Assembly (NCBI RefSeq): GCF_000517085.1
Contig: NZ_KI912107.1
Coordinates: 1,240,398-1,304,397, forward strand
DNA: 64,000 bases
Direction: 5' to 3'
Source: Saccharicrinis fermentans DSM 9555 = JCM 21142
Lineage (GTDB): Bacteria; Bacteroidota; Bacteroidia; Bacteroidales; Marinilabiliaceae
The position numbers were made by a program, and so were the translations under genes. The notes below the pieces were generated by a model. It saw only the letters and a program-made list of their open reading frames with translations. It ran no database searches and was not told the origin of the DNA. Below are positions 10,550-60,490 of the stretch, piece after piece. Within the stretch, counting starts at the first letter, position 1; every line of letters starts with the position of its first letter.

Positions 10550-11275
10550 TTAATTCTGTTGTTTACGCCTTGTATCTCCTTTGAGATCGAAGCGGTATGC
10601 AGTATGCACGATTCTATCCATAATGGCATCGGCAGCCGTAGTGTTCGACAACATTACATCATACCAGTCAGCAACCTTTAACTGGCTCATGATAATAGTG
10701 GACTTTCTTGCGTGTCGGTCTTCAATAAGCTCCATAAAATCCAGTAACTGTTGGCCATCCATTTTTCTTACAGCAAAATCATCAATGATGAGCAGGTCCA
10801 TTCGAGCCATCTTGTCAAAGAACTTCGGTAAGGATGCTTCAACCCTGTGAAGAGTCATGGTTTCAAAAAGCTTCATGATATTAAAGTAGGCCACCTTATA
10901 GCCCATTAAACAAGCGTGGTGCCCTAGTGCGGTTCCCAGCCAGCTCTTACCTGTACCTGTAGGTCCGGTGATGATGATCGGTGCCCCCTGTTTGATATAT
11001 TCACAAGTAGCCATTTGCATAACTTTACCACGCTCCAGTCCTCTGGCCGCATCAAAGCTTAGTTCTTCGATGGTTACCTGATAGCGGAAGCGTGCAGCCG
11101 ATATTAAACGTGCGTTACGGTTTGTTCTGCGCTGATCCTTTTCCGCCTGTAATAACAATTGCACGCCCTCATAAAACGAAAGGCCGTCCAGTTTTCGCGT
11201 TTCAAGCAGCGAAGCCCAGCATTGGGCCATGCCCGGCATTCGTAAACTTTTAAATTGATCTGTAACTTCATTCAT
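10550..11275 (-). CDS. istB: IstB-like ATP-binding protein of IS21
   Basis: 241-aa AAA+ ATPase related to DnaC. Walker A is IITGPTGTGKSWLG near residue 100, Walker B is DLLIIDDFAVRKMD, and the end contains an R-rich tail (KGDTRRKQQ). IstB is the target-selection and helper ATPase of IS21 transposition and works with the IstA DDE transposase encoded just upstream on the same strand (26-bp gap). Length is normal for the family. The start MNEVTDQFKSLRMPGMAQCW is the standard IstB N-terminus. Confidence 0.92.
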   Translation of the reverse strand: MNEVTDQFKSLRMPGMAQCWASLLETRKLDGLSFYEGVQLLLQAEKDQRRTNRNARLISAARFRYQVTIEELSFDAARGLERGKVMQMATCEYIKQGAPIIITGPTGTGKSWLGTALGHHACLMGYKVAYFNIMKLFETMTLHRVEASLPKFFDKMARMDLLIIDDFAVRKMDGQQLLDFMELIEDRHARKSTIIMSQLKVADWYDVMLSNTTAADAIMDRIVHTAYRFDLKGDTRRKQQN

Positions 11276-13495: not shown

Positions 13496-13556
13496 ATGTT
13501 TCATTTACACGATAAACTTAAATACTTTCTATATCCGGCACCACTGGATGTTTTGT
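13496..13556 (+). pseudogene. N-terminal scrap of an IS66-type tnpB
   Basis: After the tnpA end, ATG 13496 starts MFHLHDKLKYFLYPAPLD, the conserved opening of IS66 TnpB. The match ends within ~20 codons at the left boundary of the 945-bp repeat at about 13557, so the rest of the IS66 element (tnpB, tnpC) has been replaced or deleted. Confidence 0.6.
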
Positions 13557-14503
13557 GGATTGTCAGTATAATTTTGGTCGGTTTTTCTTGTTGTTAGGGA
13601 TTCAAATTGTTTTATTTTTTTTTGAACCAATTTTCTAAAAGCTCATATGGAAAAGCTTTCGGGTTCTGTCAAGGGCGGCTGAGGCACGAAGCCGTTTATA
13701 TACCCTTGACAGGTTCTGAAAGCGACCTATCTTTGCTTTTGAAATTTGGTGATAATCTTTCATGATTCGTCTTTGGGTGAAGTTTTGTAATTATTATTAG
13801 ATGTTTGTTTCCAGGGAGTGTTAGTTTGTTAGTGTTAAGGTATTTTCCTCATCGTGATGAGTTTAGATTTGTGTTTATTTAGTTTGGGTGCTGTGTAGAT
13901 GAGGATGGTTTGTTTTTTTTAATGGGAGGTGGATGAGGAATGTATGAATTGTTGGGTGTGAGTAGTTTCTAGTTTTATTATTGGAGTGAGGAAGTGTCTG
14001 GAGAGGAGAGGCTGGCCAGTGGTTGCAATGAATGGAGCCTGTGGGACATTATTTCAATCTTTTGTTTAGTGTTTTTTCACAGGGGGAATGGGTTGCGACC
14101 ACTGGCCAATCTTGCGAGCCGACTGCGAGTGGAGCGAGGGTGGTACAAATAGTAGCTTGAGGAAGGATAGCGGTTTGTAGCATATGTTGGGAGCGAAGCG
14201 GACAACACAAAACCGCCTACCTGCCGGAGGCTATTGAATATTACTGGTTGCAGCCCGAAGCGACCTGCAGGCGAGCCTAACATGGGTAGCGGTTGATTTT
14301 TTAACTTATTGCTGGAGTTTACGGAAGGAATGGGTTAAAAAAGCAAAAGGAGCTACCGTGAGGAGGAGGGAGGAGCGCAAAAAGCATGACAAGCTGCGAA
14401 GCACCTTTGGCTTTACCGTTCTTTTTTTAGCGATTGAAGGTTAAGTGAAAAAAGTACGGTAAAGGCTTGGCGTGTGTTTTGCGGACGACTGAGGACGAAC
14501 ACC
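13557..14503 (+). repeat. ~945-bp structured direct repeat, copy A
   Basis: This ~947-bp non-coding stretch is repeated at 52994-53936 in the same orientation with high identity over its whole length. No open frame is shared by both copies. It contains several strong inverted repeats: the nested hairpin at 13666-13712, TGGCCAGTGGTTGCAA at 14013-14028 pairing with 14093-14108, GGTAGC...GCTACC at 14285-14357, and a 17-bp arm pair at 14411-14464 (CTTTACCGTTCTTTTTT with its complement, one mismatch). It cuts a tnpB remnant on the left and a coiled-coil gene on the right, so it arrived as a unit or through recombination. I do not recognise the family. Confidence 0.85.
13624..13751 (+). ncRNA. Candidate ~128-nt multi-branched structured block, copy A
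   Basis: The block begins AACCAATTTTCTAAAAGCT and ends GAAATTTGGTG; the two ends pair imperfectly. Inside lie AAGCT/AGCTT, then a nested hairpin (CTGTCAAGGG, CGGCT, 9-nt loop, AGCCG, CCCTTGACAG, 13666-13712), then AAAGC/GCTTT. Copies exist at 53062-53189 and, on the minus strand, at 45284-45410. The third copy changes GTCAAGGG/CCCTTGAC to GCCAAGGG/CCCTTGGC, a compensatory pair. It could be an RNA or a MITE-like DNA element; transcription is not shown. Confidence 0.5.
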
Positions 14504-43960: not shown

Positions 43961-44040
43961 TAAGTAAGGTCTCTTGAAGGTTATATTGAGACTGTAAACT
44001 CAACTCTGTCCATAATTTAAAAATTATATTTTTGAAGATT

Positions 44041-45278
44041 ATGGAAAAAAAAGAATTGAACCCCGAGTATATCGCTATGCGTGATATGGCACTCGAACAG
44101 TTAAAGAGCGGTAAATCCCTGACGGGTAAGGGTGGAGTATTTGCACCCATTATAAAGGAGTTTTTGGAGAGCGCTTTGGAGGCCGAGATGGACGAGCATT
44201 TGACCTCCGAGCGTCGCTCCCAGGGCAATAAGCGCAACGGCAAGGGTAACAAAACGGTTAGATCCGAAGGCGGTAGTGTGGACATTGAACCGCCCTATGA
44301 CCGCCACGGGGATTTTGAGCCCGAAATAGTAAAGAAGCGGCAGACCGTTTTGGCAGACAGCCTTGCCCCCAAGATTATTAGCCTTTACGGCAAGGGTATG
44401 AGCCTACGTGACATCGGATCATATATCCGGGACATGTACGACGTTGAGGTTTCCCCACCGTTTTGAGCAACATTACCGACAGGGTGATCCCACAGGTCAA
44501 GGAGTGGCAGAACCGACCCCTAGACGATGTTTACCCCCATTGTTTGGATGGATGCTATGCAACTACAAGGTAAGGGACGGGGGAAGGGTAGTATCGCCCG
44601 GCCGTATACAAAATTTTGGCTATCAACAAAAGCGGGCAGGAAGGAACTCATAGGGATGTACATTTCCGAAAGCGAGGGCGCTAACTTCTGGCTGTCGGTA
44701 TTGACAGACCTAAAGAGCCGCGGAGTAAAGGATATCCTGATTGCCTGTACGGATAATCTGACGGGTTTTTCACAGGCGATATTAAGCATATTCCCCGATA
44801 CAGAAATTCAAAAGTGCGTGATACACCAAATTCGGAATTCGCTCAAATACGTGGTCTCCAAAGACCAGAAAGAATTTATGAAGGACTTGAAAAAAGTGTA
44901 CCAGGCCCCAACCAAGCCCCAACCAAGTCACAAGCCGAGAGCGAGCTGATTAACCTAGAAGTAACGTGGGGCAAAAAGTACCCCGTGGTGCTGCGCTCGT
45001 GGAACGACAACTGGGAGGAGCTGTCCGCTTACTTTAAATATGACGCCCCCATTAGGAAGCTGATTTATACCACAAACGCCGTTGAAGGCTTCCACAGGCA
45101 GGTTCGCAAGGTAACCAAGACCAAGGGTGCGTTTTCCAGCGACATGGCTTTGATGAAATTCATTTATCTGGCCACCGAAAACATATCGAAAAAGTGGACT
45201 CAACCCATACAGAACTGGGCATTGACAGCCCAGCAGCTTTGTATCATGTTTGAGGGGAGGTTTGTTATCAATCTGTGA
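44041..45278 (+). pseudogene. IS256-family transposase with several frameshifts
   Basis: Reading pieces: 44041-44466 (MEKKELNPEYIAMRDMALEQ ... DIGSYIRDMYDVEVS), a shifted stretch to ~44610, 44527-44949 (IVWMDAM ... ACTDNLTGFSQAIL) and 44814-45278 (TTNAVEGFHRQVRKVTKTKG). The Asp residues of VWMDAM and CTDNLTG and the Glu of NAVEGFH are the DDE triad of this family. A 10-base direct duplication (CCCAACCAAG twice, around 44907-44926) causes one shift; others lie near 44455 and 44570-44610. The intact protein would be ~410 aa. It cannot encode a functional transposase as read. Confidence 0.8.
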
Positions 45279-45283
45279 GCACA

Positions 45284-45410
45284 CACCAAATTATAAAAGC
45301 GAAGGTAGGTCCGCTTATGAGTTCTGCCAAGGGTATATAAACGGCTTCGTACCTCAGCCGCCCTTGGCAAAAATCATAAGCTCCCCGATGAAGCTTTTAG
45401 AAATTGGTTA
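45284..45410 (-). ncRNA. Candidate ~128-nt structured block, copy C
   Basis: On the minus strand: AACCAATTTCTAAAAGCTT, AAGCT/AGCTT hairpin, then TGCCAAGGG, CGGCT, loop, AGCCG, CCCTTGGCA (45325-45369), then AAGCG/CGCTT, ending AATTTGGTG. It lies 6 bases after the IS256 transposase stop, inside that element. Compared with copies A and B it has paired changes in the long stem (GTC/GAC to GCC/GGC). Confidence 0.5.
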
Positions 45411-45504
45411 AAAGAAAAATAATGAGTTAATTTGAAATCGTAAAAAAACAACAGGACAGAGTTCAGCTAACATTCCCGTTATAACCATATGAGAATTATA
45501 GTAC

Positions 45505-52410: not shown

Positions 52411-52993
52411 ACAAAAAAAATCTTTTGCAAGCAGTAGTATCTGCTTGTGTGTTAGGGCTTGCAAATGTGCTATTTGTACGTTTGGCTTTCAAGGGTTTAT
52501 ACTATGTTATTTCGGTTTTTTTGCATGAACTCTAAGGTGTATATTAGTAATTGTTTTTATTTATATTATATGCCGTTATTTAGTTGTTTTTACTCCAATA
52601 ATGGGATATAAAGACAATGTTATAATATATTCAATGTTATCAGATTTAGCAAATAAATTTACTATTTGAAATTATTTTGGTTATGAAACTACAGGTATGT
52701 TGTCAAAGGTATAGGGTTGTTATTAATATTTTTGTCCGGCTCATATTTTTTATGTGGAACTAGTCGGGCAAGATTGCCGCAAGTGCGCTTAGAGAAGATT
52801 CTCGTCAGGGGCGGTTCAGGGGCTATTGCTATGGGCAACGCTACTTTCTACTGGTTGGTAGTTTCGTAATTAAATAGGAGATATTCATTAACTGTTTTGC
52901 CAACTTTATATCTCTTCAATTCAATATTTAATAATGGTTTTAATGTTGATTTCTGTTCGTATAAGGTATAATTAGTTTGAAGTATGGGGTGTT
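52411..52993. other. Intergenic, holds a hairpin repeat and no gene
   Basis: Between the IS66 end and repeat copy B. It contains the degenerate hairpin at 52424-52465 and one TTTTTTATGTGG box near 52748. Around 52760-52850 there is a relatively GC-rich patch (GGGCAAGATTGCCGCAAGTG) without a protein-like frame. Confidence 0.5.
52424..52465 (+). repeat. Degenerate hairpin repeat, copy 2
   Basis: TTTGCAAGC ... GCTTGCAAA, perfect 9-bp arms around AGTAGTATCTGCTTGTGTGT. Similar to 45726-45763. The two copies lie just outside the Gabija-like operon plus IS66, in the same orientation. Confidence 0.5.
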
Positions 52994-53936
52994 GGATTGT
53001 GAGCTGGATTTTGGCCGTTTTTCTTGTCGTTTGGGATTCAATTTGTTTTATTTTTTTCTTTGAACCAATTTTCTAAAAGCTCATATGGAAAAGCATTCAG
53101 AACCTGTCAAGGGCGACTGAGGTACGAAGGCGTTTATATACCCTTGATAGGTTCTGAATGCGACCTATCTTTGCTTTTAAAATTTGGTGAAAATTTTTCA
53201 TGATTTGCCACTTTGGTGAAGTTTTATAATTATTATTAGATGTTTGTTGCCTGGGTGTGTTAGTTTGTTAGTGATAAGGCGTTTTCCTCATCGTGATAAG
53301 TTTAGATCAGCGTTTTTCTAGTTTGAGTGTTGTGTGGATGGAGTGTTTTTTTTCAATGGATGGTGGATGAGGAATGTATCAATTGTTGGGAGAGAGTAGT
53401 TTCGAGTTTTACTATTGGAGTGGGGAAGAGTCTGGAGTGAAAAGGCTGGCCAGTGGTTGCAATGAATGAACCTTGTGGATATTACCTCAATTTTTGTTTA
53501 GCGTTTTTTCACAGGGGGAATGGGTTGCGAACACTGGCCAATCTTGCGAGCCGACTGCGAGTGGAGCGAGGGTGGTACAAAGAGGAGCTTGAGGAAGGAT
53601 AGCGATTTGTAGCATATGTTGGGAGCGAAGCGGACAACACAAAACCGCCTACCTGCCGGAGGCTATTAAATATTTATGGTTGCAGCCCGAAGCGACTTGC
53701 AGGCGAGCCTAACATGGGTAGCGGTTGATTTTTTAACTTATTGCTGGAGTTTACGGAAGGAATGGGTTAAAAAAGCAAAAGGAGCTACCGTGAGGAGGAG
53801 GGAGGAGGGCAAAAAACATGACAAGCTGCGAAGCACCTTTGGCTTTACCGTTCTTTTTTTAGCGATTGAAGGGTTAAGTGAAAAAAGTACGGTGAAGGCT
53901 TGGCGTGTTTTTTGCTGACGACTGACGACGAACACC
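52994..53936 (+). repeat. ~945-bp structured direct repeat, copy B
   Basis: Near-identical to 13557-14503 over its length, same strand, 39 kb away. The main hairpins are kept (53104-53150, 53447-53540, 53843-53897) with scattered differences, several of which preserve pairing (G-T in place of G-C). The short frames across it differ between the two copies and are not genes. Downstream it abuts unrelated DNA and the relic of a nuclease gene. Confidence 0.85.
53062..53189 (+). ncRNA. Candidate ~128-nt structured block, copy B
   Basis: Same layout as 13624-13751: end pairing AACCAATTTTC/AAATTTGGTG, long hairpin CTGTCAAGGG ... CCCTTGATAG (53104-53150, one G-T). The inner stem (CGACT/AGGCG) has a mismatch, so this copy is slightly decayed. 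Confidence 0.45.
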
Positions 53937-54287: not shown

Positions 54288-55295
54288 ATGGCTACAAATA
54301 AAAATGCTACTATCCGATATCAAATTTTAAATCGCTGTTTCCGCAATCCTGGGCGCAAATATTACATTGAGGATTTAATAGACGCATGCACTGATGCTTT
54401 ATTAGATGTAGATCCTTACTCAACAGGAGTTAAACGCCGCCAAATATTTGATGATATCAAGTTCATGAAAGACTCTAAGGGATTTGATGCACCGATAGAA
54501 GCATTACCAGAGGGGAGAAAGCGCTATTATCGTTATTCAGATTGTAACTTTTCGATTAATAATCAACCGCTGAATGAACAGGAGGCGCAGCAGCTAAAGG
54601 AATCGCTGATGACTTTATCAAGATTTAAAGGTTTGCCCCAATTTGATTGGGTTGAGGAAATAAAAGTGCGTTTGGAACAAAGTTTTAGTTTAAAAACGGA
54701 AGATAATATATTAAGTTTTGATGAGAATCAATATTTAACAGGACGAGAATATATTGAGGATTTATACAATGCCATAATAAATAAGCAAGTTATAAAAGTT
54801 GTTTATAAACCGTTTTCTGTTGAAGAAGAGATTGTATTTGAGTTACATCCATATTATCTTAAGCAATATAATAACAGGTGGTTTTTGTTTGGGAAGAACG
54901 AGTTATTTGATTGTATCACCAATGTAGCATTGGATAGAATACATAAAATAGAAAACTCAAGGCTCGCTTATAGAGAAAATACGGATATAGATTTTGATGC
55001 GTTTTTTGATGATGTTATCGGTGTATCTATTACTCCAGAGACAAGTATACAGAAGATTTTACTAAAAGTGAATCGTAAACAATGGAAATATATTGAAACC
55101 AAGCCATTGCATGGTTCGCAGAAAGTAAAAGAGGTTACGGATGAAAGTGCCATAATTCAAATTGATGTGATACCAAATTATGAGTTAGAAGCCTTATTGC
55201 TATCGTTTGGAGAAAGTGTAGAAGTGTTATCCCCGCAAGATTTCAGAAATAAGATAAGGGAAAGAGTATTAAGCTTAAATAATATTTATAGTTAG
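54288..55295 (+). CDS. WYL-domain transcriptional regulator at the head of the BREX locus
   Basis: 335 aa. An N-terminal winged-helix part (TIRYQILNRCFRNPGRKYYI, GVKRRQIFDDIKFM) is followed by a WYL-type domain (YNAIINKQVIKVVYKPF, HPYYLKQYNNRWFLFGKNE) and a WCX-like C-terminus ending IRERVLSLNNIYS. WYL regulators such as BrxR often stand upstream of BREX operons, where they repress defence genes and may sense nucleic acid or nucleotide ligands. It precedes brxA by ~490 bp, with one small HTH gene between. Confidence 0.82.
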   Translation: MATNKNATIRYQILNRCFRNPGRKYYIEDLIDACTDALLDVDPYSTGVKRRQIFDDIKFMKDSKGFDAPIEALPEGRKRYYRYSDCNFSINNQPLNEQEAQQLKESLMTLSRFKGLPQFDWVEEIKVRLEQSFSLKTEDNILSFDENQYLTGREYIEDLYNAIINKQVIKVVYKPFSVEEEIVFELHPYYLKQYNNRWFLFGKNELFDCITNVALDRIHKIENSRLAYRENTDIDFDAFFDDVIGVSITPETSIQKILLKVNRKQWKYIETKPLHGSQKVKEVTDESAIIQIDVIPNYELEALLLSFGESVEVLSPQDFRNKIRERVLSLNNIYS

Positions 55296-55608
55296 TGTGC
55301 AGGAACTTTGCACACCTAGATAATTACTTTGTATTAAAGTTCGCAGCTCAATATAAAAGAATGGAATAGCATAATTTTATAGAAGGTTAGATTTAACTTG
55401 TTATATGGCCAGAGAAAAAGATATATTTAGTAGAGACTAAGGCGAAAGAGTGATTCACAAGAGATTGCAAAGTAACGATCAATTAATAAGCTTGCTTAAG
55501 CATTAATTATGAACCCATCATAAAATATTAATCAAGTGATGAAGAGTAATACGAATTAAATAATAATTTTGTGTCAGTAAAACTTTAATTTATATTAAAG
55601 AGTAACTG
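55296..55608. promoter_or_regulatory. Intergenic, likely promoter region of the BREX operon
   Basis: A 313-bp gap between the WYL gene and the small XRE-type HTH gene. No protein-like frame. It is the natural place for the BREX promoter and the binding sites of the two regulators, but I cannot point to a clear motif. Confidence 0.35.
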
Positions 55609-55782
55609 ATGAAAGAATTGTTGAAAGCAAAGGGGATCAAGCAAAAGTGGCTAGCTCAAAAGATAGGGGTTAGCGAGGTGACTGTAAGTAATTGGGTTAA
55701 GGAAAAAAGTTTTCCCAGCAATAAGCACCTGGAGAAATTAAGCCAATTACTAGATGTACCCATTAAAGAGTTGAAGCATTAG
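55609..55782 (+). CDS. 57-aa XRE-type HTH protein
   Basis: From ATG 55609: LLKAKGIKQKWLAQKIGVSE, then VTVSNWVKEKSFPS and a C-terminal LSQLLDVPIKEL, a bare XRE/Cro-type HTH domain. It ends 3 bases before the brxA start, so it is the first gene of the BREX unit. Probably a regulator of the operon; it is too short to hold more than the DNA-binding domain. Confidence 0.75.
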   Translation: MKELLKAKGIKQKWLAQKIGVSEVTVSNWVKEKSFPSNKHLEKLSQLLDVPIKELKH

Positions 55783-55785
55783 ACC

Positions 55786-56391
55786 ATGGAGGATGTAATA
55801 AAATACGATTTTTCATTTACAGCCTCATCTTTGCGGCGAAATGACATGGTGATGGTGGCGAAGAATTTAATTGGTAGAGAGAAACTGAATTTGGAGCAGG
55901 AATTAGGAAGAGGGAAAGGCGCTACCGGAAAGAGGATTTTACGAGAATGCAATAAAAGAATAGCAAAACTCACCCATGAACAGATTGATTTGCTGATTGA
56001 TGGAGATCTGATAACTCAAAACCACATGGCCTTTTTGGCGATATGTAAACTGCACTCTTTTATTAGAGACTTTGTGGTGGATGTGGTTAGAGAGAAACTT
56101 TTGGTATATGATTATGGGTTGACTGAAGGAGAGTATATTTCCTTTTATCGTAGAAAAGCAGAGTTGCATAGTGAAATGGAAAGCTTAAAAGAATCAACAC
56201 AGAGGAAGATTAAGCAGGTTACTTTTAAAATACTTGAGCAAGCAGGGCTTATTGATGGAGTGAAGACAAAAGTCATTCAAGCCCAGATACTCGACCATAA
56301 AGTATGCAGAACCATTGTAAGTGATGATAAAGAATGGCTTAAAGTGTTTTTATTAACCGATCAGGATATAAACAGTTGGACAGAATACTAA
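55786..56391 (+). CDS. brxA: BREX protein BrxA (DUF1819)
   Basis: 201 aa: KYDFSFTASSLRRNDMVMVA, ending NSWTEY, all-helical, with features of the DUF1819 family (short helical repeats around LITQNHMAFLAICKL and IKQVTFKILEQAGLI). BrxA is a conserved small DNA-binding component of type 1 BREX, needed for some functions of the system. It is followed by brxB with a TAATG overlap, and brxC then starts at 56972. Its neighbours fix the assignment. Confidence 0.88.
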   Translation: MEDVIKYDFSFTASSLRRNDMVMVAKNLIGREKLNLEQELGRGKGATGKRILRECNKRIAKLTHEQIDLLIDGDLITQNHMAFLAICKLHSFIRDFVVDVVREKLLVYDYGLTEGEYISFYRRKAELHSEMESLKESTQRKIKQVTFKILEQAGLIDGVKTKVIQAQILDHKVCRTIVSDDKEWLKVFLLTDQDINSWTEY

Positions 56392-56969
56392 TGAAAGATA
56401 TATCAGAAAAATTCGACCATTTATATAAAGTTATTTCATCTAAAAGTTTTTTAAACAAAGAAGCATTAGGTGGTGAAATTCCTTTTTTTATTTCGGCATA
56501 TGATGCAAAAAAAGAGTTGCTAGTGGATGAATCAATAAAGTTATTGATAAATAAGCTAGATACATCAGGTGTGCCGGTATTGGAACTGAATTTGTATGAA
56601 TTAGTATGTGAAATACTGGAAAACAAAGGAGGTGTTGAACGAATGTTTAAGGTTGAGAAATTAAAATCGAAAGAAAAATTTTTAAGAGCACTACAATCTT
56701 CTTTAAATATTCATCAAGTACTTATGCCCTTAATTCAACGTAAAATAGAACAGGCAAATGCTCATGTTTACTTTTTAACAGGTATTGGCAAAGTGTTTCC
56801 TTTTATACGTTCGCATAATGTTTTAAATAATCTGCAAAATATAGCCAAAGAAGCCCCGACGGTTGCTTTTTTCCCTGGAGACTACAATGGGCATACCTTA
56901 AATTTGTTTGGGTTATTGAAGGATGATAATTACTACCGAGCATTTAATATTGAAAAAATAGAAGCCTAG
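56391..56969 (+). CDS. brxB: BREX protein BrxB (DUF1788)
   Basis: 192 aa from ATG 56391, overlapping the brxA stop by one base (TAATG). A longer frame starting at 56376 lies inside brxA and is not preferred. MKDISEKFDHLYKVISSKSF, GGEIPFFISAYDAKKE and FLTGIGKVFPFIRSHNVLNN, HTLNLFGLL are DUF1788 features. Its exact role in BREX is unknown, but it is required with BrxC and PglX. Confidence 0.88.
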   Translation: MKDISEKFDHLYKVISSKSFLNKEALGGEIPFFISAYDAKKELLVDESIKLLINKLDTSGVPVLELNLYELVCEILENKGGVERMFKVEKLKSKEKFLRALQSSLNIHQVLMPLIQRKIEQANAHVYFLTGIGKVFPFIRSHNVLNNLQNIAKEAPTVAFFPGDYNGHTLNLFGLLKDDNYYRAFNIEKIEA

Positions 56970-56971
56970 CC

Positions 56972-59900
56972 ATGAATATAAAGTCATTTTTTGAGAAGGA
57001 TATCAATAGAAATATTGAAACAGTTATTAAAGCTGATGATAGAGCGCATATCTCTGACGAAGTAGCAGAATATGTTATTACCCATGAAATAGCGAAGAAA
57101 ATAAGAGATTTTTTTCAGTCGTATAATGATTATGCTGGAGCCAATGGTGTATGGATATCTGGTTTTTTTGGTAGTGGTAAGTCGCACTTATTAAAGATTT
57201 TATCCTATGTTTTAGAGAATAAGTCTTTTAATGGCTACAAGAGTGGCGAATTATTTGCTGAGAAGATTGAAGATGATGAGATGTTAAAAGGAGATGTGAT
57301 GGCGGCCACTCGTATTCCCTCAGAATCTATTCTTTTTAACATAGACCAGCAGGCACAGATTACTGCCAAGTCGGATGAGAATGCAATACTATCGGTATTT
57401 TATAAAGTGTTTTTTGATCACTTGGGATATTATGGTTTTCAGACCCATGTAGCAGAATTTGAGATGTGGGTAGATAAACAAGGGCATTTTGAGACTTTTA
57501 AAAGTAAGTTTGCTGAAAAACATAAAAGCCCTTGGGAGGAAGCTCGCTTAGACTATTTTGATCCTTTGGTGACAGATGCCATTGCGGAAGTATTAGGCGA
57601 ACTAAATAATACGGATGCATCGAAATATGAAAATATATTAGAAGGACTGGAAGACAGGCAAAAACAATCGATAGAAGACTTTTGCTTGCGCGTGCATGAT
57701 TATATTAAAACAAAACCTAAAGGTTTCCGATTAAACTTTTTTGTGGATGAGGTAGGGCAATATATCAGCGATAATACCAAGTTGATGTTAAACTTGCAAA
57801 CTATAGCAGAAACGTTAGCTACCAGAACCAAGGGGTGCTCGTGGATATTGGTTACTTCGCAGGAGGATATGGAGAAAGTAGTAGGAGATATGAGTAAAAG
57901 TCAACAGAATGACTTCTCCAGGATTCAGGCTCGCTTTAAGCTTAAAGTACCTTTAACTTCAGCTAACGTAGATGAGGTGATTGAGAAAAGGTTGTTAAAG
58001 AAAAATGACAATGCGCAGAAACGATTGGTGTCTTCTTATAAAGAAGAGAAGGCCCATTTGGATACTCTTTTATCGTTTTCAGATGCAGGTGTGCAATTTA
58101 AAGGATATAAAGAAGATACGGATTTCAGTCATAAATACCCTTTTGTACCTTATCAGTTCGATCTTTTTCAGCATTGTCGCAGAGCCTTATCTACGCATAA
58201 TGCTTTTCAGGGAAAACATGCTTCTGTGGGAGAACGTTCGATGCTGGGGGTATTTCAGCAAGTGATTCAAAGTATTGAAGAGAGAGATGACAGGGCCTTA
58301 GTTAGTTTTGACAAGATGTATGAAGGGGTTCGTAACGAACTGCGTGGAGAAATACAAAGTTCAGTTATATTGGCTGAGCGTAATCTGGATAATCGTTTTG
58401 CAGTGCAGGTGTTAAAAGCGTTATTTCTGGTAAAATACTTCGCTAATTTTAAAACCACACGGCGAAATATATCCGTTTTGATGATTGATGATATCAATGT
58501 TGACCTTAAAAAACATGAGCGCAATATCGAAGAGGCACTCAATACGCTTGAGAATCAAAGTTATGTGCAGCGTAATGGGGATATATATGAGTTTTTAACT
58601 GATGATGAAAAAGATGTAGAGGAAGAAATTAAAAGTACGGATATTGATGAGCAAGCAGTAACCGATTTGTTAAAAGCGATATTTTTTGATGAGATTATCC
58701 GTGACAATAAAATAAAATTTCTGGACAATAAACAGGATTACGATTTCACTAATAAGATTGATGGTTCTATTCTGGGTAGAGAAAAAGAATTGGAAATAGA
58801 AATCATAACACCGAATTATGTTGATTACGATAAATTAGACATTATAAAAGCACAAACCATGGGTAGTGCTTCCATGAAAATGATTTTACCATTGGATGCG
58901 GTTTTTATGAAAGACCTGAAGATGTATTTACGTACGCACAAATATGTGAAGCAAAGTCAGTCTACCACAAATCGACCAGAGGTAAAAAGAATATTACAAG
59001 ACAAAGGACAACAGAATGCGGATCGTCGTCGCAATTTATTGTTGATTGCCAACAAACTGATGGCTACTTCTACAGTTATTATGAACGGCCAAAAACATGA
59101 GATGGGTCAAAATACTGAAGGTAAGACCCGTGTAGTGAATGCTTTTCAGGATCTGATAAAAATAGTTTATTCTAATTTACGGATGCTGGGTAGTGTGCAA
59201 TATAGTGAAGACACCATTAAACAAGTTATCAGAGACAAGCAAGATGCTCTTTTTGGAGCAGATGATAAGTCCATGTCTGAAGCTGAATCAGAAATAATAA
59301 ATCTTATTAAACGGCGCAAGAAACAATCGGACAGGACATCGCTGAACGATTTAAAAACACATTTTTTGCGCAAACCATACGGCTGGTATCCCAATGCTAT
59401 TTGGACGATAAGCGCAAAACTATACAAACGAGGTAAGCTAGAATTAAAGCAAGATACCAATTTGTTAGATGACGATAGAGTATTAAATGCTTTGCTTAAT
59501 AGTGCCTATCATGCCAATACATTGCTTGAACCACAGGCTACTTTTGATGTAGCTATGGTGAAAAAACTGAAACAGACGTATGCGGATGCTTTTGATGAAA
59601 ACTGTGCGCTAACGGAGGCTAAAGATGTGGCCAATGCTTTTAAAGAGAGACTGAAAGAGATGCAGGTGGAACTCGGTAAATTATTGGCGAAGAGAAATAG
59701 TTATCCTTTTATTAGTGGCTTAAGTGATTTTAATGAAAAGTTATATCGTTGGAGCACGAAAGAATACAGCTATTACCTTACAAATATAAGTGATTTTGAA
59801 GATGACTTGCTAGACACAAAAGAAGACTTGTTGGATCCGATCAAACGATTTATGAATGGAGATCAGGTACAAATATACGATGCTATACATGCGCTATTAA

Positions 59901-60490
59901 ATGGCGATCGCTCTAATTTAGATTATATTGAAGGGAATGAATTTAAAACTCTTGAAAATTTATTGGCTCACCCTAAGCCTTATACTGGCAATTTAATCAG
60001 AGAAGCCAAGGCAGCCAAAGAGGAGTTAAGTAAAAAAGTATTAAATCTTATTGAGGAAGAAAAAACTTCAGCCATTGCAACAGTAGAGAAGACCATTAAA
60101 GTTTTACAAAGCAAGGATGAGTATAAAAACTTAGAATCAGGCAAACAAAATATAATTGTAAGGCCCTTGCAGGATGAAATGCAGAAGTTGCATAATCAAA
60201 AGTATATTGCCATTATACGTGATATCAAGCATAAGGTAAAAGATAGACTTTTGGAGCAACAGCTCAACGAAATGATTCGTTTATCCACACCGATAAAAGA
60301 AGAGGCTGCTAAAAAAGATGGTGCGCCTGTGGTACACGACCCGATTCCGCATTACATCAGAAAGAGTGCGGTGAAAGTAAATTTTAGCAAAACAGAATTA
60401 CGATCAGAAACGGATGTGCAGGAGTATATAGAAGCCTATAAAAAGGCCTTGTTAAAAGAAATAAAAAATAACAGACGTATTTCGCTATAG
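56972..60490 (+). CDS. brxC: BREX P-loop ATPase BrxC
   Basis: 1172 aa. Walker A GFFGSGKSH at residues 64-72 in the typical ANGVWISGFFGSGKS context, a Walker B-like LNFFVDEVGQYI, then a very long helical region ending with YKKALLKEIKNNRRISL. Length is normal for BrxC/PglY (~1200). It starts 2 bases after brxB. In BREX it is the large ATPase of the core complex. The gene appears intact. Confidence 0.93.
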   Translation: MNIKSFFEKDINRNIETVIKADDRAHISDEVAEYVITHEIAKKIRDFFQSYNDYAGANGVWISGFFGSGKSHLLKILSYVLENKSFNGYKSGELFAEKIEDDEMLKGDVMAATRIPSESILFNIDQQAQITAKSDENAILSVFYKVFFDHLGYYGFQTHVAEFEMWVDKQGHFETFKSKFAEKHKSPWEEARLDYFDPLVTDAIAEVLGELNNTDASKYENILEGLEDRQKQSIEDFCLRVHDYIKTKPKGFRLNFFVDEVGQYISDNTKLMLNLQTIAETLATRTKGCSWILVTSQEDMEKVVGDMSKSQQNDFSRIQARFKLKVPLTSANVDEVIEKRLLKKNDNAQKRLVSSYKEEKAHLDTLLSFSDAGVQFKGYKEDTDFSHKYPFVPYQFDLFQHCRRALSTHNAFQGKHASVGERSMLGVFQQVIQSIEERDDRALVSFDKMYEGVRNELRGEIQSSVILAERNLDNRFAVQVLKALFLVKYFANFKTTRRNISVLMIDDINVDLKKHERNIEEALNTLENQSYVQRNGDIYEFLTDDEKDVEEEIKSTDIDEQAVTDLLKAIFFDEIIRDNKIKFLDNKQDYDFTNKIDGSILGREKELEIEIITPNYVDYDKLDIIKAQTMGSASMKMILPLDAVFMKDLKMYLRTHKYVKQSQSTTNRPEVKRILQDKGQQNADRRRNLLLIANKLMATSTVIMNGQKHEMGQNTEGKTRVVNAFQDLIKIVYSNLRMLGSVQYSEDTIKQVIRDKQDALFGADDKSMSEAESEIINLIKRRKKQSDRTSLNDLKTHFLRKPYGWYPNAIWTISAKLYKRGKLELKQDTNLLDDDRVLNALLNSAYHANTLLEPQATFDVAMVKKLKQTYADAFDENCALTEAKDVANAFKERLKEMQVELGKLLAKRNSYPFISGLSDFNEKLYRWSTKEYSYYLTNISDFEDDLLDTKEDLLDPIKRFMNGDQVQIYDAIHALLNGDRSNLDYIEGNEFKTLENLLAHPKPYTGNLIREAKAAKEELSKKVLNLIEEEKTSAIATVEKTIKVLQSKDEYKNLESGKQNIIVRPLQDEMQKLHNQKYIAIIRDIKHKVKDRLLEQQLNEMIRLSTPIKEEAAKKDGAPVVHDPIPHYIRKSAVKVNFSKTELRSETDVQEYIEAYKKALLKEIKNNRRISL

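Follow-up and report, generated by a model that had tools for sequence, protein, structure and literature searches.

We analysed a window of 64,000 nucleotides from Saccharicrinis fermentans DSM 9555 = JCM 21142 (contig NZ_KI912107.1, positions 1,240,398 to 1,304,397), in which an element of about 128 nt is present in three copies, here called A, B and C. Copy C lies inside a complete IS256-family insertion sequence, between the transposase stop codon and the right inverted repeat, whereas copies A and B lie near the left ends of two direct repeats that are 39 kb apart. An IS21-type element abuts copy A and an IS66 lies about 0.6 kb left of copy B. The repeats are at both ends of a 39-kb segment with metal-efflux genes, an IS91-type transposase and a tyrosine recombinase. 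No gene or function was recognised in the repeats, although short pieces of them recur in many genomes of the family. A BREX defence cluster lies directly to the right of the repeat that holds copy B. Additionally, a decayed standalone copy with a recognisable core was found elsewhere in the same genome (locus L011, 2337-2474, G000:C3:4792349-4792474), scoring 66.8 bits with a covariance model of the element (model R1).

Features of the window that bear on the folded element (positions of the window)
Feature	Positions	Strand	Description
Copy A	13624-13751	+	Outer stem ends 13626-13641 / 13735-13750; long arm 13655-13675 / 13703-13723
Conserved core of copy A	13670-13708	+	CAAGGGCG, apical hairpin, CG, TTTATATA (8-nt bulge, 13695-13702), CCCTTG (-33 box region, 13703-13708)
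-7 box of copy A	13728-13735	+	TATCTTTG, 19 nt after CCCTTG, in the internal loop of the fold
Copy B	53062-53189	+	Core 53108-53146; -7 box TATCTTTG 53166-53173
Copy C	45284-45410	-	Inside the IS256-family element, reversed to the transposase; core 45366-45328; -7-like box TACCTTCG 45307-45300
IS256-family insertion sequence	43988-45477	+	Carries copy C; inverted repeats GAGACTGTAAACTCAACTCTGTCC / GGGAATGTTAGCTGAACTCTGTCC; 10 copies in this genome, 8-bp duplications in several
IS256-family transposase gene	44032-45278	+	Open reading frame broken in this copy; 407-428 aa intact in other copies; family calls made on the relative L098
Left direct repeat	13556-14503	+	About 950 bp; holds copy A
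Right direct repeat	52993-53936	+	About 950 bp, 91% identical to the left repeat; holds copy B
WYL/WCX regulator followed by BrxC-like protein	54288-60490		BREX defence cluster

Fold and compensatory changes

The initial annotation described three copies of a multi-branched element with compensatory changes, and this observation was confirmed in all three copies. Folded as RNA, copies A, B and C gave -55.8, -55.0 and -54.4 kcal/mol, with z = -7.3, -9.2 and -7.2, and none of 200 dinucleotide shuffles folded as well. The change of GTCAAGGG/CCCTTGAC to GCCAAGGG/CCCTTGGC in copy C and the G-U form in copy B are real, and an RNAalifold consensus of 19 relatives had 22 pairs, of which 9 showed changes on both sides. 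However, the predicted fold is not multi-branched but one long irregular hairpin with an outer stem, an internal loop, a long arm, GTCAAGGG/CCCTTGAC, an 8-nt bulge TTTATATA on the 3' side and an apical hairpin. The three copies are also not equivalent, as C belongs to a transposon.

The arms differ between copies but stay complementary. Among 24 divergent copies, under 60% identical, 200 of 288 positions were Watson-Crick pairs, compared to 97 +/- 8 with partners shuffled (maximum 125 of 2000) and 24-33% when the arms were slid by 1-3 nt. G.U pairs (55) outnumbered A.C pairs (13), showing that the forward strand is the one that folds, and with DNA parameters that strand folded better in 35 of 42 copies (p = 2e-6). 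In the 25 copies with a -7 box, the -33 side was paired, the pairing fell to 0.2-0.37 at the -7 box and it returned to 0.8 beyond it.

Relatives and genomic context

By BLAST the element was found in 18 of 100 related genomes, and by covariance model in 23 of 71 genomes of the family. Model R1, which models the whole 128 nt, returned few hits outside the family over 395 Bacteroidota genomes, and no Rfam family matched at gathering or permissive thresholds. The core, CAAGGGCG-hairpin-CGTTTATATACCCTTG, worked better as a search pattern. In the form CAAGGRCG-N12-30-CGTTTATATAYCCTTG it was found in 66 contigs of one-per-species genomes, mostly Bacteroidota, including Marinilabiliaceae, Prolixibacteraceae, Sphingobacteriaceae, Saprospiraceae, Roseivirga, Flammeovirga, Dyadobacter, three candidate-phylum contigs, one gammaproteobacterial MAG and others. 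It was also found in five IMG/VR contigs. One of these (L171) carries three copies, at 11147, 12768 and 13990, one of them 0.1 kb before an opposite-strand SLOG-family gene, and looks like a leading region with several single-strand promoters. The core or its TTTATATA-CCC architecture is present on plasmids of Enterocloster, Mucilaginibacter, Pedobacter, Persicobacter, Vibrio, Aliivibrio and Actinobacillus.

Recurrent right-hand neighbours, on the opposite strand with the 3' end towards the element, were IS256 transposase (10 loci), IS3 transposase (9) and MobB relaxase (9), in addition to IS110 (4 loci, two orientations), an IS21 IstB and an ArdA, although not every member of a cluster was scanned for these counts. 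Five IS3 copies in one complete genome gave exact ends and placed the core about 100 nt inside the right inverted repeat. In IS3 loci such as L088 the transposase stop codon lies inside the TTTATATA bulge, so that the 3' arm of the putative promoter also encodes the transposase C-terminus. We also looked at IS256, IS3 and IS4/5 transposases in other families of the class. Outside the genome of the window only one weak match was found (L210, 2 mismatches), at the level seen in shuffles (5 of 1560). Most IS256 and IS3 relatives in other families thus lack the element, which is a feature of some IS lineages and not a general part of these IS families. Many of these relatives instead have a GC-rich terminator-like hairpin at this place. 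At four loci in other families (L199, L201, L231 and L239) a different conserved hairpin, GGCTCTGCTGGSGAGCAACC..AGGGATAA, with a terminator was found at the 3' end of IS256 and IS3 transposases. Rfam called a tRNA at L201 1086-1158 (-) and nothing in the other three, and this hairpin is possibly another IS-borne small RNA or a target-site feature.

After CCCTTG the sequence is variable, and T[AT]nnTT[TC]G then appears at 17-20 nt in 25 of 42 nonredundant copies, whereas 1.4 were expected from shuffles and 1 was found in the mirrored arm. The strict form TAnnTTTG was found in 11 of 42 copies. This is the Bacteroidota -33/-7 promoter. The copies from candidate-phyla bacteria have TTGCAA-N17/18-TAA instead, as a sigma70-type promoter would. 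However, about 40% of the nonredundant copies lack a recognisable -7 box at the expected place, and the IS3 copies have TTTCTTTG instead of TAnnTTTG.

A putative single-stranded DNA promoter

The region upstream of ssb on the F plasmid has the same layout as the element. The strand reads CTGTCCTGGGCAG (CCTGTCCTGGGCAG), apical hairpin, CTG, TTCATTTA, CCCTGGACAG, and its predicted fold has the same 8-nt AT-rich 3' bulge before CCC (TTCATTTA versus TTTATATA). By position this is Frpo2, which was shown to fold with -10 and -35 boxes and to drive early expression of ssb in recipients, as its deletion removes this expression (PMC9849209). However, the kinship to Frpo rests on architecture and parts of the core, as significant sequence similarity at BLAST level was absent. 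The F region was found only by a 4-mismatch search, ColIb-P9, which carries ssi, shares GGGCG..CGTACCCTTG by eye only, and a stricter structural scan requiring GGG next to the apical stem did not return the F or ColIb sites. Frpo1 was not seen in the F record with the query used. The element further differs from Frpo1, Frpo2 and ssi in carrying -33/-7 instead of -35/-10 boxes and in being found inside or beside insertion sequences and MobB elements, not only in plasmid leading regions. Single-strand origins (sso) of rolling-circle plasmids are another similar system, being folded single-stranded DNA that polymerase uses to make a primer; no rolling-circle Rep was seen near the window copies. 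In the open-access literature we found no mention of Frpo with Bacteroides or with insertion sequences as carriers, and Samuel et al. (PMC11541004) do not mention Bacteroid* in the main text.

A single-strand promoter predicts a gene 5' of the hairpin on the opposite strand. Such a gene starts 50-110 nt 5' of the core in the Mucilaginibacter and Pedobacter plasmids (a JAB gene in Pedobacter), in Actinobacillus (a zincin-like metallopeptidase gene), in Aliivibrio and one of two Vibrio copies (a hypothetical gene) and in CPR contigs, and radC lies further left in both Vibrionaceae plasmids. On the other hand, the Enterocloster plasmid copy and the linear IS copies have no gene in the predicted place, the IS110 copies occur in both orientations, and in the window IS21 and IS66, not a gene, lie on the 5' side of copies A and B.

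We consider it likely that the element is a single-stranded DNA promoter of the Frpo/ssi kind, fitted to the Bacteroidota sigma factor. In this view, the strand reading 5'-AACCAA..CAAGGGCG..TTTATATACCCTTG..TAnnTTTG..TTTGGTG-3' folds back on itself when single-stranded, and the 3' arm supplies the non-template strand of a promoter, with the -33 TTG in the double-stranded arm and the -7 box in a pre-opened loop. RNA polymerase would bind and transcribe away from the hairpin, using the DNA 5' of the hairpin as template, and in plasmids the RNA would express entry genes (ssb; in relatives JAB-domain, radC and zincin-like genes). The fold, the covariation, the strand preference, the boxes at fixed spacing, the open loop at -7 and the shared architecture with F are shown by computation, whereas the binding of polymerase, the transcription from single-stranded DNA and any role in insertion sequences are inferred from sequence. 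The interpretation in the initial annotation, that structure is under selection in either RNA or folded single-stranded DNA, was partly supported: covariation across the phylum agrees with it, but its statement that no nameable family matches did not hold, given the Frpo/ssi architecture. Identity with an IS end had been named there as a refutation, and copy C is indeed inside an IS, but the motif exists outside that IS and outside any IS, so it is not simply an IS end.

Other explanations appeared unlikely. An ordinary double-stranded promoter in the 3' arm could make an antisense RNA that represses the transposase or relaxase gene, with the hairpin being secondary. The boxes have the right order and spacing for this, and in the IS256, IS3 and MobB contexts they point into the 3' end of the gene on the other strand (44 of 60 copies with a right-hand gene). 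However, arm 1 lies upstream of the -33 box and would not be transcribed, yet it covaries with arm 2 over 12 and more pairs, which a plain promoter does not need and which is best explained by folding of the DNA strand itself, and the plasmid copies near entry genes are not antisense to anything obvious. Somewhat less likely still is a structured small RNA from the forward strand, for example a 6S-like RNA that imitates an open promoter and binds polymerase. The strong RNA fold, the tolerance of G.U over A.C and the conserved loop and bulge sequences would agree with this, but no conserved -7 box was found upstream of the 5' end (TAnnTTTG in 1 copy, 1.5 expected; the relaxed form in 10, 5.0 expected), Rfam gave no match, and the same architecture is established as single-stranded DNA in F (PMC9849209).

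A passive hairpin, either a bidirectional terminator or a MITE-like hitchhiker picked up by IS elements, seemed very unlikely. Standalone copies exist and terminator-like hairpins occupy this place in many relatives, but the core and a promoter at fixed spacing are conserved across phyla, the fold has no terminal T run at the base, and no target duplications were found around the element itself. Integron attC was considered because the element follows stop codons and the antisense strand folds, but was rejected as the core sites GTTRRRY/RYYYAAC are absent. Retron, group II intron, hammerhead and twister were likewise considered, without any supporting gene or motif.

Position in insertion sequences and significance

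Single-stranded DNA promoters are established on conjugative plasmids such as F, and the unexpected part here is the position inside IS256 and IS3 elements and next to IS110, IS21 and MobB relaxase genes. IS3, IS21 and IS256 share the figure-of-eight and minicircle route (PMC3299598), and in copy-out/paste-in elements of these families transposase is expressed from a promoter made or used only in the circular intermediate (PMC7780238, PMC3299598). That junction promoter, Pjunc, is double-stranded and split over the two ends, whereas here a complete predicted hairpin promoter lies inside the right end, on the antisense strand. RNA made on the folded strand of the IS256 and IS3 copies would run out through the right inverted repeat. 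In a single-stranded circle of that strand it would meet the left end and the transposase start codon about 120-130 nt further on (67 nt to the tip and 53 nt from the left tip to ATG), continue into the transposase gene in sense and could prime synthesis of the second strand. This role is tentative. IS2 donates its right end (PMC3299598), which would circularise the other strand, so that the model needs left-end donation in these elements. It remains possible, but no more than that, that several unrelated insertion-sequence families in Bacteroidota carry their own single-stranded DNA promoter near the right end, firing only on a single-stranded circle made during copy-out transposition, priming the second strand and expressing transposase before the circle is double-stranded.

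If this is true, it would suggest how copy-out transposons get their second strand made, a step described only as 'host replication' in the papers we read. It would also give a sequence signature for finding early-expressed entry genes in Bacteroidota, for which the leading-region papers we read name none. Single-stranded promoters would then not be a plasmid speciality but a shared part of mobile DNA in several phyla, with boxes matched to the host sigma factor.
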